A stretch of 64,000 nt of DNA from Sulfolobales archaeon. GTDB lineage: Archaea > Thermoproteota > Thermoprotei_A > Sulfolobales > NBVN01. Shown here in pieces: positions 53,751 through 61,977 of this stretch (position 1 is its first letter; every line of letters starts with the position of its first letter). The stretch covers positions 124,001 to 188,000 of the forward strand of contig JAOAKQ010000001.1 of the NCBI GenBank assembly GCA_026419835.1, written 5' to 3'. The notes beneath the pieces are model-generated. The model saw only the letters and a program-made list of their open reading frames with translations, searched no databases and was not told the DNA's origin. Made by a program: the position numbers and the translations under genes.

Positions 53751-53885
53751 TCAGCATCACACCGCTAAGTAGAGAGTGCCGAGCATATTAACCGTGGATC
53801 CACGGTGTACCGTAAGCCAGCGCGGTATGAGCGTGATCCTTAAATGAAGGCAGTATTTAGCTTAAAAACTCGTTGCGCAGGCTAT

Positions 53886-54134
53886 ATGGGTAGCCGAACT
53901 GTGGGTAAGGTGTACACATCGCTGATTAAGAGAACCGCTAGAAAACTGCTAGAGATGCATCCGGGTGAAGTATCGGAAGACTTCGAGAGAAACAAGGAAC
54001 TGGTATCTAAGTACGTAGACGTGAAATCGAGAAAGCTTAGAAATCAAATAGCTGGTTACTTAACTAGGTTGGTTAAGCTATCTAAGAAAGCGGAGGTTCT
54101 TCCTCAAGAAGCGGAGGTTTCTGATGAAGGTTAA
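53886..54134 (+). CDS. rps17e: Ribosomal protein S17e
   Basis: About 82 residues; the core VYTSLIKRTARKLLEMHPGE with NKELVSKYVDVKSRKLRNQI and AGYLTRLVK matches S17e of the 30S subunit. Start is uncertain: ATG 53844 has GAGCGTGATCC upstream but adds 14 unrelated residues; ATG 53886 and GTG 53901 fit the family better, GTG 53901 giving the common MGKVYT. A TATA-like TTAGCTTAAAAAC at 53855-53867 is about 25 bases before 53886, which fits a leaderless mRNA. The 3' end overlaps the MoaD-Cgi121 gene by 11 bases. Confidence 0.88.
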   Translation: MGSRTVGKVYTSLIKRTARKLLEMHPGEVSEDFERNKELVSKYVDVKSRKLRNQIAGYLTRLVKLSKKAEVLPQEAEVSDEG

Positions 54135-54876
54135 GATAGAGCTCTACGGCTTCTTGAGGAGCTTACTCAACTCTAAGGAAGTACTTATTGAGGTTCCCGA
54201 GAACTCCACTCTAAGAAAGGTGCTCTCCGTAGTCTACGAACGAATACCCGAGCTCCGCGAAGCTGTGGAGATCGGTGGAAGTCTCAAACCGTACTTCATG
54301 CTGTTTATTAACGATGTGGATTACGAACTTCTTAACGGATACGAATACGTGGTGAGAGATGGCGATGTGATACAGCTAGTTCCAGTAAGTCACGGCGGGT
54401 CCATCGAACCTCTGGAAGAGTACATCAATCAGATAAACTCGATGAGAGTTTCCGTATGCTTAGTTAATGAGGAGCAAGCCGAAGAGCTACTCAGTAGAGT
54501 AGACGGTGTTAGCGATTCCTGCGTAGCTCAAGTACTACCCTTAAAGTACTACTACGGAAAGAACTACTCGGCATTAGTAGCCTACCTAGCACTACGCTCA
54601 CATAGACTAGGGCTCAGCGTAAGTAGAAAGAAGTCGCTAGAATTTCTACTGTACTACTTCGGAGATAGGCAGATAAGTAACGTACTTAAACTACTGAAAA
54701 ACGAGCGCTCTAGAGAGTACGTAGCTATCTACGCGTGCCTACCGGAGGCTGCTGAATCCGAAGATTCCTTCTCGAAAGCCCTAGCTAAGTGCGATAAAAC
54801 TCCGGAAGAACCTCAGAAAGTACCTGAAGAAGTACTTGAAAAACTAGCGTCAGGTATATTTAAAATACTCTCGTAG
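54124..54876 (+). CDS. MoaD/Urm1-like ubiquitin-fold domain fused to KEOPS subunit Cgi121
   Basis: 250 residues in two parts. Residues 1-92 read as a MoaD/ThiS/SAMP-type beta-grasp protein: VKIELYGFLRSLL, LRKVLSVVYERIPELREAV, VRDGDVIQLVPVSHGG, ending in the di-Gly that carries sulfur or an isopeptide bond in that family (Gly91-Gly92). Residues 105-250 match Cgi121: QVLPLKYYYGKNYSALVAYL, SLEFLLYYFGDRQISNVLKL, then a final helix EEVLEKLASGIFKIL. Cgi121 is part of the t6A-forming KEOPS complex and binds tRNA. The di-Gly is internal here, so it works either uncleaved or after cleavage. An internal ATG (54442, residue 107) could also give Cgi121 alone. TtuA/NcsA lies 2.3 kb away. Confidence 0.85.
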   Translation: MKVKIELYGFLRSLLNSKEVLIEVPENSTLRKVLSVVYERIPELREAVEIGGSLKPYFMLFINDVDYELLNGYEYVVRDGDVIQLVPVSHGGSIEPLEEYINQINSMRVSVCLVNEEQAEELLSRVDGVSDSCVAQVLPLKYYYGKNYSALVAYLALRSHRLGLSVSRKKSLEFLLYYFGDRQISNVLKLLKNERSREYVAIYACLPEAAESEDSFSKALAKCDKTPEEPQKVPEEVLEKLASGIFKILS

Positions 54877-54933: not shown

Positions 54934-55017
54934 ATGCTATTCGAGGAAGAGGAGTGGTGGGAGGAAGAGGAGGAGTGGTGGGAAGAGGAGGAAGAGTGGG
55001 AGGAAGAGGAGGAATAG
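54934..55017 (+). CDS. Microprotein of 27 residues made of Glu and Trp
   Basis: ATG CTA TTC then only Glu and Trp codons: MLF, then runs of E broken by WW, WW and W in a near-repeating pattern (EEEEWW, EEEEEWW, EEEEEWEEEEE). It ends with TAG at 55015-55017. It has its own BRE/TATA promoter at 54887-54900, and ATG is the first start codon after the predicted transcription start. GAGTGA upstream is a weak ribosome-binding site. CACCACTCCTC just after the stop (55018-55028) is the reverse complement of a stretch inside the gene (54950 region), which could fold, and T-rich DNA follows. Charge is about -20. The function is unknown; an RNA-mimic or chaperone-like role is only a guess. Confidence 0.6.
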   Translation: MLFEEEEWWEEEEEWWEEEEEWEEEEE

Positions 55018-55107: not shown

Positions 55108-56928
55108 TTGGTTAGAGTTGCGTCTATAGATAGAGGTCTGTGCAATCCGAGGAAGTGCCAGCTAGAGTGCGTTAGGTTCTGCCCGATCAATAGAACTGGG
55201 AAGAAGGCCGTCGAGGTACCTCAGGACGTTGGTAAAGCAGTTATATACGAAGACGTCTGCGTAGGGTGCGGTATTTGCGTTAAGAAGTGCCCGTTTCAAG
55301 CTATTGCGGTAGTGAACCTACCTGACGAGCTAGAGAAGTACGTTATCCACAGGTACGGGCGGAACGCATTTAAGCTGTACGGACTTCCGGTACCTCAAGA
55401 AGGAAGAGTGGTCGGTGTCATCGGTAGAAACGGAATCGGAAAAACTACGGCCGTTAGAATACTAGCTGGTGAAATAGTTCCCAACCTAGGTGCGCTGAAC
55501 TCGAGTCCGAGCTGGGACGAGGCTCTGAAGTTCTTCAGAGGCTCCGAACTCTACAACTACTTCTCGAAGCTCGTAAACAAGAAGATCAGGGTAGTTCACA
55601 AGATACAGCACGTAGACGCTGTAAGAGTGTATGTTAGAGGTTTCGTTAGGGAGGTTCTAGAGAAGATAGATGAGAGAGGTCTTCTAGGTGAGCTCGGGAA
55701 GTTCCTGAACTTAGAGCTGGTGCTAGATAAGAAGATCTCTACGCTAAGCGGTGGTGAACTACAGAAAGTAGCTATAACGGCGGCTCTACTTAGAGATGCC
55801 GATGTCTACGTATTCGATGAACCAGCTAGCTATCTAGACGTCAGGGAAAGACTTAGAGTAAGTAGAGCTATAAGAAGGTACGTACCGAGTGGAGCCTACG
55901 CAATAGTCGTAGAACACGACCTAGCCGTGGTGGACTACATCGCAGACCTCGTCTCGGTGGTCTACGGAGAACCCGGAGTTTACGGAGTATACTCGAAAGT
56001 ATACTCCGTTGGTTCAGGCATTAACCACTTCCTCGGCGGCTACCTACCAGCCGAGAACATGAGGATAAGGTCCGAACCAGTAGTCTTCAGCGCGAAACCC
56101 GAGCAGCGAGTGCTTGAACTAGAGCACAGGCAGGTGTACCTGACTTGGCCGGAGATGTCTAAGTCGCTAAACGGATTTACACTGAGCGTCAACCAGGGGG
56201 AAATACGCGTAGGTGAAGTAGTGGGTGTTGTAGGTCCAAACGGCATTGGAAAAACTACGTTCGCTCGCTTAATAGTAGGTGAGATAGAGCCTGACGTAGG
56301 CTACGTTCCATTTAGAGGGTTGAGAATATCGTACAAACCGCAGTACATTAAGGGGGAGGAGTTTCCGTGGGAATACGTTGGTGAAGCTCTAGACAGTATC
56401 TCTAAGGAGGGAATAGCGTCTAGTGAGTGGTTTGCTGAGGAGGTAGTTAGGAAGTTCAAGCTCCACAAACTAAAGGAGAAGAAGATTAAAGAACTAAGTG
56501 GGGGAGAGCTGCAGAAGTTCTCGATAGCCATAGCTTTAGCTAGAGATGCTGAACTCTACGTACTCGACGAGCCATCAGCTTTTCTAGATGTAGATGAGAG
56601 GCTAGCTGTAGCTAGAGCTATAAGAAAGATAATCGAGGGGAGGAAAACGGCCTGCCTAGTCATAGACCACGACATCATGTTAATAGACTACATATCCGAT
56701 AGACTCATAGTGTTCTCAGGTGAACCTGGAGCTAGAGGCTTGAGTATAGGACCCGTAGATGTGAGAAGAGGTATGAACGCCCTCCTAAGAGAGCTTGAAG
56801 TTACGTTTAGGCGGGACGTAAAGACCGGAAGACCCAGAGTTAACAAGCCAGATTCCTATCTAGATAGGTACCTCAAGAGTATAGGAGAGTACTACTACAT
56901 GAAGCCCGCGGAAGATAAGGAGTCTTAG
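55108..56928 (+). CDS. Ribosome recycling factor ABCE1 (Rli1)
   Basis: 606 residues, normal length. N-terminal ferredoxin-like part with CQLECVRFCPINR and CVGCGICVKKCPF for two 4Fe-4S clusters. First ATPase: GRNGIGKTT, LSGGELQKV, FDEPASYLD. Second: GPNGIGKTT, LSGGELQKF, LDEPSAFLD. It splits ribosomes after termination. TTG start at 55108. The preceding gap contains the microprotein and its promoter. Confidence 0.97.
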   Translation: MVRVASIDRGLCNPRKCQLECVRFCPINRTGKKAVEVPQDVGKAVIYEDVCVGCGICVKKCPFQAIAVVNLPDELEKYVIHRYGRNAFKLYGLPVPQEGRVVGVIGRNGIGKTTAVRILAGEIVPNLGALNSSPSWDEALKFFRGSELYNYFSKLVNKKIRVVHKIQHVDAVRVYVRGFVREVLEKIDERGLLGELGKFLNLELVLDKKISTLSGGELQKVAITAALLRDADVYVFDEPASYLDVRERLRVSRAIRRYVPSGAYAIVVEHDLAVVDYIADLVSVVYGEPGVYGVYSKVYSVGSGINHFLGGYLPAENMRIRSEPVVFSAKPEQRVLELEHRQVYLTWPEMSKSLNGFTLSVNQGEIRVGEVVGVVGPNGIGKTTFARLIVGEIEPDVGYVPFRGLRISYKPQYIKGEEFPWEYVGEALDSISKEGIASSEWFAEEVVRKFKLHKLKEKKIKELSGGELQKFSIAIALARDAELYVLDEPSAFLDVDERLAVARAIRKIIEGRKTACLVIDHDIMLIDYISDRLIVFSGEPGARGLSIGPVDVRRGMNALLRELEVTFRRDVKTGRPRVNKPDSYLDRYLKSIGEYYYMKPAEDKES

Positions 56929-57153: not shown

Positions 57154-58101
57154 TCAGAAGGGTAGCCTGGAGTTTACTCCAATCTTACTCAGCAGATCGC
57201 AGAGTACGCACACACTCCTACCGTAAGCTGTTGGAGAGCCGCATACGGAGCACTGAGGTAGCTCTACGAGATTAGAGGCCTTCTTTAGTAGTTCCTTCTC
57301 GATGTAGCTATCTATAGCTTCGAGTACTCTAAGGAGGGAACCGGGCTTGGAGCGCTCCACTTCGTATAGGTAGTCACGTAGTACAGCCCTCAGAGTCGGC
57401 CTGAACCTAATGTAGGGACACTCAGCTTCCTGAAACTTGAAGCCTCTCATAAAGGCGTAGGCCGACGTCTCCCATTCGTATATCTTTCTAAGAGGTTTAA
57501 CTCTCTTAATAAAGTACCTACTTAGCGTAGAGCTGAGTGGGTGGTTCTGTATTAGCCTACCCTCATCGCCTCGCAGTAAGTTCATTAGGTAGGTCTGAAC
57601 TTCGTCATCTAGATTGTGGGCTGTCACTACCTTATCGTAGCCTAGAGTTCTCGCGTGGTAGTTTATTATTCTCCTCCTCAGTACACCGCAGTACGTGCAG
57701 GGACTTGTTTCTAGTTTCCTCAATCTATCTAGAGAAACTATCTCGTCGAGACTATACCCTGTGAACTCCTTAAAGGAAGTTAGGTGGAGGTCTATTCCGT
57801 AGTTTCTAGATGCCTCAACTATCCAAGCTACGTCATCGACTCTATTGTAACCTTCAACACCCTCGACTACAGTCACTATACCTACCTTACTCACGTCGTG
57901 AATATCCTTTACAATATCTAGGAGTACGAAGCTATCCTTCCCCCCCGAGAGAGCTAGAAGTACTCTATCGCTCGGTGTAATCATTCCGTACCTAGCTACC
58001 TCGTTTCTAAATCTGGTGACTAGGTCTTCTCTAAAGCACTTATCGCACAGTACTCTACCACTATGCCTCTGCAGTACTCTACCACTAGCCCTACCACACA
58101 C
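57154..58101 (-). CDS. tRNA 2-thiouridine synthase (TtuA/NcsA/Ncs6 family)
   Basis: 315 residues. PP-loop LALSGGKDSFVLLDI, catalytic Cys pair SPCTYCGVLRRR and EAECPY, and a C-terminal zinc finger CSVCGS/CVLC. Family members thiolate U34 or U54 of tRNA using sulfur from a ubiquitin-like carrier (TtuB, Urm1, SAMP2). The N-terminal finger normally has CxxCG; here the protein starts ATG-TGT-GGT (MCGR), so the first Cys is missing. Just upstream TTTGCAATGTGTGG would read L-C-N-V in another frame, so two bases of a TG repeat may have been lost (start region 58085-58115). The carrier could be the MoaD domain of the neighbour fusion (inference). Confidence 0.88.
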   Translation of the reverse strand: MCGRASGRVLQRHSGRVLCDKCFREDLVTRFRNEVARYGMITPSDRVLLALSGGKDSFVLLDIVKDIHDVSKVGIVTVVEGVEGYNRVDDVAWIVEASRNYGIDLHLTSFKEFTGYSLDEIVSLDRLRKLETSPCTYCGVLRRRIINYHARTLGYDKVVTAHNLDDEVQTYLMNLLRGDEGRLIQNHPLSSTLSRYFIKRVKPLRKIYEWETSAYAFMRGFKFQEAECPYIRFRPTLRAVLRDYLYEVERSKPGSLLRVLEAIDSYIEKELLKKASNLVELPQCSVCGSPTAYGRSVCVLCDLLSKIGVNSRLPF

Positions 58102-59496: not shown

Positions 59497-61977
59497 TTGG
59501 AAGTTCTCCTCACTTACAATGTCGGGCTCTCATCTGTAACCATACTGAAGAATCCATCCGGAAGCTACTACTACCTAGTTAGCGATATAGAGCCGGATAG
59601 GTACGAAGCTATCGCTAAGCTGGTAGGTAGAGTGCTGGAGCGCCTAGATCCTCGAAAAAGCGTAGGTGTATACGATATAGCTAAAACCGCGCACGCGTAT
59701 CTAAGAAATTGCGACCTGGAGTTAATTACGTACGTAGTTAACAGGGAGTTGAAGTATAAGAAACTTCAAGTACTTCTAGACGACCCCTACGTAGAGGATA
59801 TATCGATAGTTGGACCGGGACCTGTATGGGTGAGGCACAAGTACGTAGTAGAGAAAGACCCGGTAGCGGACTACATCGAGACCAACATAGTGATAGGTAC
59901 GTACGAAGAGTTCATGAACTACATGGAGTTAATTGCGGAGAAGTCGGGTAGGGTAGTCAATAGAAGAAACCCAATTATAGACTTCACACTACCAGAAGAA
60001 GATGGAGGTCACAGAGTACACGTAGTTCTTCCAGATGTAGCATACTCAAGTGGAGAGATCGTAATTAGAAAAAAGCTGCACCACGCGCAGGTAGATCTCG
60101 ATACCCTAGTAGAAAACGGCATGGTCCCACAGCATGTTGCTGAGTTAATAAAGACTGTCATTAGAAGAAATGGGTCGGTAGTAATTCTCGGACCCCCGGG
60201 GTCTGGTAAGACAACTCTACTCAAAGCAATACTGTACTCAGCTATACCTAAGTTCTGGAAGATAGCTGTAATTGAGGATACACCGGAAGTCGATATACCG
60301 AAAGACTCCAGCTGGGTTAGGTACACAGTTCCAACTAATGTGTGGGGATCTGAGAGAGGTATAGACCAGATGTCACTAGCTAAAGCAGCTCTCAGAGCGT
60401 CCGTTAGTAGGTTTCTGGTAATAGGTGAAACTAGGGGAGCTGAAGCGAGAGTACTCGCACAGGCAATGAATATGGGTTTAGGGGGTCTGTGCCTACCCGC
60501 TGACCAGCTCGTACTAGCTAGAGTAGATGGAAGAATAGACCTCTACGAAATCAGGTCTATCGTAGAGAAAATTGTGAGAGAAGGACCCGGTAGGGTTGAG
60601 GTAGTGTCTATAGGACCGAAACTCGAACCTATATGGCGGCCTGTATCAGCAGCGATCGTTAAGAGCGGTAGTCGCAGATTCGCTAGAATTGAAGTAGATG
60701 AGGGAGCTGTTCATGAAGTACATGAAGACCATAACGTGGTGGTTGTTGACGGAGAATCCGGCCTCGCTCTTAAGAAAGCTAGAGAACTTAAGCCTGGGGA
60801 CCTACTCCTATCTCTCCAGTCTCTACCTAAACCAGCTAGAGAAAGAAAGTTCATAGACATACGGGAGATTCTGAGTGAATACTCAAATAACTCTGAGAAC
60901 TCGGCAGTCGCAGATTTTCAAGAAGTGAAATCAACCGTAGTGGAGGGCCTAGACCTCTCCACACCAAAACTTCTAGAGCTTAGCGAAGAACTGGGATACG
61001 CGCTCGGACTGTACGTAGCTACCGGTGGTATTGAGGAAGACCCCCTGGGTAGCTCAGCGAGTGCGTACTTTAGTGTCGGTAGAGCTATCTCCAGTAGGGT
61101 AGTTGAAGCACTAAAAAAGCTTGAAGTAGAGAAAATCGAGATAGTATCAGACTCTACTCGAAATAGTGTTGTTAGAGTAAGAGCGAGATCTCGCGTACTA
61201 CTATCTGTACTCTTAAGTACCGTCGGTAGAGGTACTGGCAGTTCTTTGAAGAAGGTACCACTCAGACTACTTATTGAGTCGCCCGAAGGATTTAGAGTAG
61301 GTTTTCTCAGAGGTTACTGCGATGGTGTAGGACTTTACGACAGTATGGATGAAGACGGTGCGATCGAAATCCGCGCGTATAGTAGAGAGGTAGCTGAATC
61401 ACTATCTCTCATTCTTAGAACTCTTAAAGTGTCTTCATCCGTTAAACCCCGTCGCTCGGAAAGTAGGGAACTCTATGTAGTTCGCGTAGATAGGGATGTA
61501 GATAGATTCCTACGTATCGTAGTAAGAGGTGAGGTAGGGGTTTCTGAGGTAAGTGGTGAAGTCCGCAAAAATCTGGAGGGAGTTGAAGAGCTCGCGCTAC
61601 TAAGAGTTCGAAGCGTAGATTTTGTTGAGAAGGATAGTCCGCTGTACGATATTGAAGTACCGGGAACCCACCTCTACGCAGTCTCAAGTTCTCTCATACT
61701 AACTCACAATACTACATTTCACGCTGGGTCGCCCGAAGAAGCTATTGTCAGACTCACTTCACCTCCAATAGAGTTAACACCGCAGCAGCTATCTATGATA
61801 TGGCTATTCGTAACCCTCGGCTTCGTAGAGAACGGGGGTTTGAAGAGAGTTGTTACTAGAGTAGATGAACCTGTGCTCAAGGCGGGAATGCTACTTCTCA
61901 ACACTATATACAAGTACGGTGAGAACGTAGACCTAGACACGCTCTTTAAGAGATTTTTGAGGGTTAAGGAATGGTAA
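59497..61977 (+). CDS. Type IV pilus/secretion ATPase (FlaI/VirB11-like) containing an intein
   Basis: 826 codons; the mature ATPase is 419 residues after removal of the intein at residues 332-738. Host protein: GPPGSGKTT (Walker A), an IEDTPEVDIP block, MSLAKAALRASVSRFLVIGE (Walker B and Glu), then GLGGL joined to TTFHAGSPEEA (His box), and a C-terminal VVTRV region. It hydrolyses ATP to push pilin out of the membrane. TTG start at 59497. Overlaps the membrane gene downstream by 7 bases. Confidence 0.92.
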   Translation: MEVLLTYNVGLSSVTILKNPSGSYYYLVSDIEPDRYEAIAKLVGRVLERLDPRKSVGVYDIAKTAHAYLRNCDLELITYVVNRELKYKKLQVLLDDPYVEDISIVGPGPVWVRHKYVVEKDPVADYIETNIVIGTYEEFMNYMELIAEKSGRVVNRRNPIIDFTLPEEDGGHRVHVVLPDVAYSSGEIVIRKKLHHAQVDLDTLVENGMVPQHVAELIKTVIRRNGSVVILGPPGSGKTTLLKAILYSAIPKFWKIAVIEDTPEVDIPKDSSWVRYTVPTNVWGSERGIDQMSLAKAALRASVSRFLVIGETRGAEARVLAQAMNMGLGGLCLPADQLVLARVDGRIDLYEIRSIVEKIVREGPGRVEVVSIGPKLEPIWRPVSAAIVKSGSRRFARIEVDEGAVHEVHEDHNVVVVDGESGLALKKARELKPGDLLLSLQSLPKPARERKFIDIREILSEYSNNSENSAVADFQEVKSTVVEGLDLSTPKLLELSEELGYALGLYVATGGIEEDPLGSSASAYFSVGRAISSRVVEALKKLEVEKIEIVSDSTRNSVVRVRARSRVLLSVLLSTVGRGTGSSLKKVPLRLLIESPEGFRVGFLRGYCDGVGLYDSMDEDGAIEIRAYSREVAESLSLILRTLKVSSSVKPRRSESRELYVVRVDRDVDRFLRIVVRGEVGVSEVSGEVRKNLEGVEELALLRVRSVDFVEKDSPLYDIEVPGTHLYAVSSSLILTHNTTFHAGSPEEAIVRLTSPPIELTPQQLSMIWLFVTLGFVENGGLKRVVTRVDEPVLKAGMLLLNTIYKYGENVDLDTLFKRFLRVKEW
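60490..61710 (+). mobile_element. Intein in the pilus ATPase, 407 residues
   Basis: Begins with Cys in CLPADQLVLARVDG (block A) and ends LILTHN before Thr, the classic His-Asn plus Thr splice junction. Block B is near HEVHEDHNVVVV. The middle has two LAGLIDADG-like helices: LGYALGLYVATGG (around 60990) and FLRGYCDGVGLY (around 61305). The first has Thr where the catalytic Asp is expected, the second keeps Asp. So splicing should work, but the homing endonuclease is probably dead. The insertion lies two residues before TTFHAGS, which is a nucleotide-binding and hence highly conserved site. ATPases of this family (KlbA) are known intein hosts in Euryarchaeota. Confidence 0.92.

Follow-up and report, generated by a model that had tools for sequence, protein, structure and literature searches.

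Gene organisation of the locus

The window analysed here, the whole stretch of DNA of 64,000 nucleotides, comes from an archaeon of the uncultured genus g1, which belongs to family f1 of a crenarchaeal order. In it a ubiquitin-like domain and a KEOPS subunit are encoded by a single gene. The features of the locus are as follows.

53886 to 54134, forward strand: ribosomal protein S17e gene (NF002242, E 1e-26), the first gene of the conserved operon
54124 to 54876, forward strand: Urm1-Cgi121 fusion gene, one uninterrupted ORF of 250 codons (250 aa)
54124 to 54399, forward strand: Urm1/ThiS-type ubiquitin-like (beta-grasp) domain, residues 1-92 (PF09138, PF02597, Foldseek)
54391 to 54399, forward strand: His90-Gly91-Gly92, with a predicted cleavage point after Gly92 (invariance in fusions; low pLDDT)
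54400 to 54873, forward strand: Cgi121 domain (KEOPS subunit), residues 93-250 (profiles of relatives, structure, tRNA-binding positions)
54934 to 55017, forward strand: Glu/Trp micro-ORF of 27 aa, directly 3' of the fusion gene
55108 to 56928, forward strand: RLI/ABCE1 ribosome-recycling ATPase gene, a conserved neighbour
57154 to 58101, reverse strand: NcsA/TtuA-family tRNA thiolase gene, a possible user of a Urm1 thiocarboxylate

The S17e ORF opens at 53844 with its likely start at 53886, and an S17e gene is located 5' of Urm1 in nearly all relatives. The fusion gene shares its first 11 nt with the end of the S17e gene, and a ribosome-binding-like GGAGGT is present just 5' of the fusion gene. 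A promoter and terminator scan of the region, of a kind that does not cover archaeal promoters, found nothing. As the first-pass annotation had noted, the thiolase gene lies 2.3 kb from the fusion; it is on the opposite strand with the RLI/ABCE1 gene in between, and the four long relative loci (L001-L004) all preserve the order fusion - RLI - thiolase. Matches of the thiolase to NF047749 (E 2.5e-42) and NF049949 (E 1e-41) are both far under the cut-offs and therefore do not distinguish NcsA from TtuA.

The first-pass annotation had placed a fusion of a ubiquitin-like protein (Ubl) and Cgi121 at 54124-54876, and its coordinates, domain boundary and Gly-Gly are all correct. The AlphaFold2 model of the fusion (mean pLDDT 87.8) has two folded domains, and residues 90-92 (His-Gly-Gly, HGG) are its lowest-confidence segment (pLDDT <50), predicted to be flexible. 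A separate internal start for Cgi121 was rejected, as a scan of the junction revealed no conserved in-frame start. The intact full fusion is found in five further species of the genus at 50-76% identity, so that all six species with an assembled locus carry it; the seventh genome (G134, 79% complete) lacks a match to S17e as well as to the fusion, which indicates that the locus is missing from that assembly and makes it uninformative. The window's own assembly is fragmented (107 contigs, 84% complete), which could suggest that two genes were joined by an assembly or frame error, a risk that had been named beforehand. This is refuted by the same uninterrupted frame in the five congeners, which are separate assemblies, and in further lineages, and we give the idea practically no weight. 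The window gene is thus confirmed as one intact Urm1-Cgi121 fusion with a divergent Cgi121 half.

The ubiquitin-like half

The N-terminal half matches Urm1 (PF09138; E 5e-10, 40 bits, cut-off 21.8) and ThiS (PF02597; E 1.6e-7, 32.2 bits, cut-off 22.5), and both matches end at Gly92. Foldseek retrieved SAMP1 (3po0) and Urm1 (6yuc, 4wwm, 2ax5) for the first domain, with a probability of 1.00 for 3po0, 6yuc and 4wwm. The SAMP1 equivalog NF041918 scored 41.1 of 60 bits, below its curated cut-off, and the domain is not filed as SAMP1. Gly91-Gly92 is intact in the window protein and is followed by 158 more residues. Urm1 needs an exposed Gly-Gly in order to function, and the pair would be free only if the chain were cut.

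Other ubiquitin-like proteins in the same genome are a MoaD-MoaE fusion, one protein ending in SGGC and a second free-Gly-Gly protein ending in PPAGGG. Presence of the latter means that the fused Urm1 is not the sole possible sulfur carrier. The SGGC-ending protein (G000:C30:323338-323574, L135) extends one residue past Gly-Gly and would need trimming too. A MoeB/UbaA-like, E1-like enzyme (G000:C30:1817-2503; ThiF, E 8.5e-71) is, judged by its sequence, a candidate for the cognate E1 of the fused Urm1.

Overlapping adjacent genes fuse easily and, with other ubiquitin-like proteins present in the genome, the N-terminal half could be a mere appendage of Cgi121 devoid of any role. However, this half is at least as conserved within the genus (49-81% identity) as the Cgi121 half (49-73%), and its HGG is invariant across all the fused lineages. 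A neutral fusion therefore seems very unlikely.

The Cgi121 half and the KEOPS complex

Searching the window's C-terminal half with PF08617 (CGI-121) gave no match, and no Pfam family matches residues 93-250; on the window protein the NCBIfam KEOPS Cgi121 model NF011465 reached E 3e-7 and 30.5 bits, under its 40-bit cut-off. Matches to SpoU, amidase and poliovirus-receptor families were weak and not above chance, and these assignments were rejected. Aligned relatives (L011, L015, L016 and L057) pass PF08617, and orthologous fused or adjacent proteins pass PF08617 or NF011465. A profile built from the C-terminal halves matches Cgi121 chains in the PDB (E 6e-12 to 4e-9), and Foldseek matched the second domain to Cgi121 structures 1zd0, 4xah, 7kjt_H, 3enp and 8up5_C (probability 0.99-1.00, E 8e-4 to 4e-3). 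Profile searches on each half, as proposed in the first-pass annotation, thus bear out both domains, the first directly above cut-offs and the second through the profiles of its relatives and through structure. Residues 93-250 are a divergent rather than a typical Cgi121. A Pfam CGI-121 search of the window's own genome missed the fusion gene, a caution that such searches under-detect Cgi121 across the order.

In Thermococcus kodakarensis Cgi121, the substitutions K59E, Q74A and I75E impair nucleic-acid binding, and these residues bind the 3'-CCA of tRNA (PMC10989989). Alignment together with the spacing of the three residues places R168, Q183 and I184 of the window protein at the positions of K59, Q74 and I75. 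Residue 168 is K or R within the genus. Over the fused copies, Q is present in 30/31 and I in 31/31, and the first position is basic (K/R) in 16/31. The window's genome also encodes Kae1 (TsaD), with a gene for a Bud32-type kinase (read by eye) beside it, and Pcc1.

Conservation of the HGG motif at the junction

HGG is present at the junction in all of the 31 Cgi121 fusions, which come from several lineages, and in 36/36 fusions of Urm1 to a phosphoribosyltransferase. Residues on both sides of the motif vary. Pairwise identity among the 31 Cgi121 fusions is 1.00 over HGG, drops to 0.46 one residue further on (mostly Ser) and is 0.10-0.22 at positions 2-8. Some unfused Urm1 copies have lost the motif (HHG in G121, HPG in G168 and YGG in G069) and no fused copy has, which also holds for the lists before filtering; this indicates that the Urm1 fold does not need HGG. 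Preservation of HGG inside a variable linker would therefore be best explained by a function at a chain end.

Urm1 ends exactly at HGG in most of the relatives with separate genes. Some other copies carry tails of 1-14 residues past the motif, showing that precursor forms occur apart from the fusion.

Association with a JAMM protease gene

A single JAMM gene (PF14464; G000:C19:337064-337393) with the E, HTH and SxxD residues is present in the window's genome, on the same contig as the fusion. Its best NCBIfam match, 'desampylase', is weak (22.9 bits). All seven genomes of the genus have a PF14464 JAMM above the cut-off. We surveyed the 109 genomes of the order with a readable Urm1 end, counting Gly-Gly as masked in a fusion or a tail. 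JAMM is found in 55/59 genomes with a masked Gly-Gly and in 8/50 with a free one (42 without). Counted by genus, JAMM is present and absent in 19 and 1 masked and in 2 and 25 free cases, respectively; within family f1 the corresponding figures are 10 and 0, and 3 and 13. The four masked genomes without JAMM are 74-87% complete.

The raw Fisher p value of 2e-17 by genome ignores shared ancestry. The gene tree contains two supported independent contrasts of masked Gly-Gly and JAMM, too few for a sign test. The link is thus a strong co-occurrence that is not significant with phylogeny considered, and it may reflect shared ancestry. Genus g8 is placed with g1 by the gene tree (support 85/95) and combines a JAMM gene with a free Gly-Gly; this fits an order of events in which JAMM came first and permitted the fusion.

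The MoaD-MoaE fusion was considered as the sole reason for JAMM and rejected. The trend holds in genomes that carry a MoaD-MoaE fusion and in those that do not. In Sulfolobaceae and in several genomes of family f8, MoaD-MoaE is fused yet there is no PF14464 JAMM above the cut-off. It follows that another protease can exist or that PF14464 can miss divergent ones. The MoaD-MoaE fusion and Urm1 conjugates are other possible JAMM substrates in the window's genome.

Distribution and origin of the fusions

The usual arrangement in relatives, both elsewhere in the order and in further classes of the phylum, is S17e - Urm1 - Cgi121 with Urm1 and Cgi121 adjacent and separate, and the window fusion was derived from this gene order by stop loss. 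A survey for the fusion in other archaea, as suggested by the first-pass annotation, located it in further species, genera and classes: genus g1, genera g3 and g4 of the same family, one genome of another family (G006), one of another class (G367), G535 and about eighteen genomes of the thaumarchaeal-type family f15. The labels 'thaumarchaeal-type' and 'Sulfolobaceae-like' rest here on gene context and protein length rather than on stated taxonomy.

The gene tree requires seven changes of state. A single origin of the g1 and g3/g4 fusions was rejected by an AU test in which they were held together (p 0.012, with the groups chosen after the tree was seen), and the fusion probably arose in three separate lineages of the crenarchaeal order. 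G139, which is unfused with one extra residue, nests within g3/g4 and could be a re-split of a fusion. The window fusion clusters with crenarchaeal copies that are unfused, apart from the thaumarchaeal-type clade, and probably has an origin separate from the thaumarchaeal-type fusion.

In several of the split relatives (L016-L019, L024 and similar loci), the Cgi121 ATG lies inside the His-Gly-Gly codons of Urm1 (cATGGaGG) with an 11-nt overlap in another frame, which shows how easily both genes can be joined. Family f3 (L113-L117, L200-L233) has at the S17e locus a Urm1-phosphoribosyltransferase fusion followed by a Cgi121-like gene; in one example (L116, 703-1512, forward strand) the partner matches PF00156 (E 2e-25) and is nearest to xanthine phosphoribosyltransferase. 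Two members of f3, G026 and G029, have only a 4-residue tail past HGG.

A gene of about 130 aa follows Urm1 in the Sulfolobaceae-like loci L111, L112 and L120-L122. It has Cgi121 profile matches of E about 1e-4 to 1e-9, and all the top fold matches of its low-confidence model are Cgi121 (E 0.04-0.4). From sequence and model it looks like a very divergent Cgi121 and, by its position, it is probably arCOG07188.

Comparison with known systems

Makarova and Koonin described in 2010 that all Thaumarchaeota have a Ubl-Cgi121 fusion beside S17e, and they proposed a role in tRNA modification or KEOPS regulation (PMC2948915). The thaumarchaeal protein has the same two domains with S17e alongside, and the thaumarchaeal-type fusions found here share the domain order and the junction HGG as well; the window fusion differs in its crenarchaeal order and its probably separate origin. 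The same report described the Sulfolobales neighbourhood S17e - Urm1 (arCOG00540) - arCOG07188 - HerA, which resembles the window in the gene order around the Urm1-type Ubl but in which Urm1 and the next gene are separate. It considered both Sulfolobales and Desulfurococcales to lack Cgi121 (PMC2948915). Later work has dealt with Cgi121 of S. islandicus (PMC10989989) and, contrary to the 2010 report of absence, our survey suggests that Cgi121 often adjoins Urm1 in both groups. The idea of a Ubl-Cgi121 protein is thus known since 2010, and what is new is the fusion in a crenarchaeal order, the HGG invariant in 31/31 copies as against the diverging residues after it, and the link to a JAMM gene.

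In the open-access literature searched, we found no discussion of cleavage of a Ubl-Cgi121 fusion. Precedents exist for other fusions and precursors. M. tuberculosis MoaX, a MoaD-MoaE fusion, is cut between Gly82 and Ser83 and requires the cut to work (PMC4326299), and DRJAMM of D. radiodurans cleaves MoaD-MoaE (PMC8832034). Like the window protein, these fusions combine a Ubl with internal Gly-Gly and a partner, and MoaX is cut after the second Gly and before Ser, as predicted here for Gly92-Ser93; their partner is a Moco synthase subunit instead of a KEOPS subunit. A Caldiarchaeum JAMM cleaves SAMP precursors, and Rpn11 cleaves a ubiquitin precursor after Gly-Gly (PMC6043591). These Caldiarchaeum precursors are likewise archaeal Ubls with residues beyond Gly-Gly, but a short tail is removed there whereas a protein of 158 aa follows in the window.

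Possible processing of the fusion protein

The invariant HGG, the Urm1 copies with short tails, the JAMM gene and the published precedents lead us to consider it probable that the fusion is a precursor, which is cut after Gly92, probably by JAMM, into free Urm1 and Cgi121. The two-domain chain would be translated and then cut just after Gly92 (Gly92-Ser93). Released Urm1 would be adenylated by the E1-like enzyme and either serve as a sulfur carrier, with the NcsA/TtuA-type thiolase encoded nearby as one possible user, or modify proteins. Released Cgi121 would join Bud32 in KEOPS and present the 3' end of the tRNA so that t6A can be made. The fusion may then do the job that translational coupling does in relatives, providing equal amounts of both proteins, and would in addition make activation of Urm1 dependent on a protease. 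Among the three functions offered by the first-pass annotation, the precursor cut at Gly92 is therefore the one that gains support. Delivery of the carrier to tRNA by the intact fusion is less likely, as its C-terminus would remain blocked, and regulation of KEOPS through a ubiquitin-like tag is a speculative option.

Alternatively, the chain could stay uncut, with Urm1 as a permanent arm of KEOPS. This arm would stabilise the Cgi121 half or draw thiolation partners to the tRNA that Cgi121 holds, and HGG would be retained for binding a partner and not for being cut. The anticodon region of tRNA is where both pathways place their modifications, the CCA-binding residues are kept in the Cgi121 half, the thiolase gene is a conserved neighbour, another free-Gly-Gly protein is available for sulfur chemistry, and fusions arose repeatedly. 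However, an internal Gly92 lacks the free carboxylate that adenylation requires, HGG does not vary although the residues on both sides do, and Urm1 copies with tails of 1-14 residues could scaffold no partner, while JAMM is nonetheless present in most of their genomes. We regard such a scaffold as unlikely. Somewhat less likely still is a regulated partial cleavage in which intact and cut forms would both be functional, with their balance linking the supply of Urm1 to KEOPS status or to stress. The cut of MoaX is incomplete, being in its authors' view perhaps slow or regulated (PMC4326299), and oxidative stress induces DRJAMM (PMC8832034); but many close relatives manage with two separate genes, which argues that an intact form is not generally needed.

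The 2010 description of the thaumarchaeal fusion did not settle whether the link between Ubl and KEOPS takes the form of a single protein or of two. Repeated and probably independent fusions, the invariant Gly-Gly and the JAMM link make this question directly testable. They also suggest, as a general rule, that archaeal Urm1 genes with non-terminal Gly-Gly occur where a JAMM protease is available.

In eukaryotes, ubiquitin is made as fusions with ribosomal proteins and freed by a protease. The window protein is similar in having a Ubl as the N-terminal part of a translation-related protein; the partner and the protease class differ, and cleavage is proven for the eukaryotic fusions and predicted for the window. 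A more speculative proposal, to which we attach rather low confidence, is that the fusion is the archaeal counterpart of these proteins. It would represent a supply line for Urm1 in which release by JAMM is tied to the synthesis of a translation-related protein, the partner is swapped by lineage (Cgi121, a phosphoribosyltransferase or a short tail), and JAMM gates tRNA thiolation or urmylation together with t6A synthesis. If the processing proposed here is true, production of a Ubl from a translation-related precursor would not be a eukaryotic peculiarity.

Other open reading frames of the neighbourhood

The peptide of the micro-ORF directly 3' of the fusion gene, MLFEEEEWWEEEEEWWEEEEEWEEEEE, consists almost entirely of Glu and Trp, and a literature search on such Glu/Trp micro-ORFs found no paper. 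Among the fetched loci of this neighbourhood, similar micro-ORFs of about 23-51 aa are present in 85 genomes of several families. Besides the window, the loci are L001-L010, L014, L018, L020, L022, L025, L026, L028, L030-L033, L060, L118, L119 and L240-L317. They are located after Cgi121 or S17e and before RLI or thermosome genes, often with GGTG or GAGGTG on their 5' side. Glu accounts for 1662/2153 codons (GAA 874 and GAG 788, freely mixed) and Trp for 466, a composition that is partly selected as the filter favours these two residues. Where peptides are identical between genomes, 487/487 nucleotide differences fall at third codon positions, an outcome that the restriction to identical peptides makes inevitable.

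Further downstream, an ORF of 826 aa for a type IV secretion/pilus-like ATPase (59497-61977, forward strand) contains an apparent intein, read by eye. The insert starts with CLPADQLVLARVDGRIDLYEI and ends with SLILTHN before TTFHAGSPEEA.
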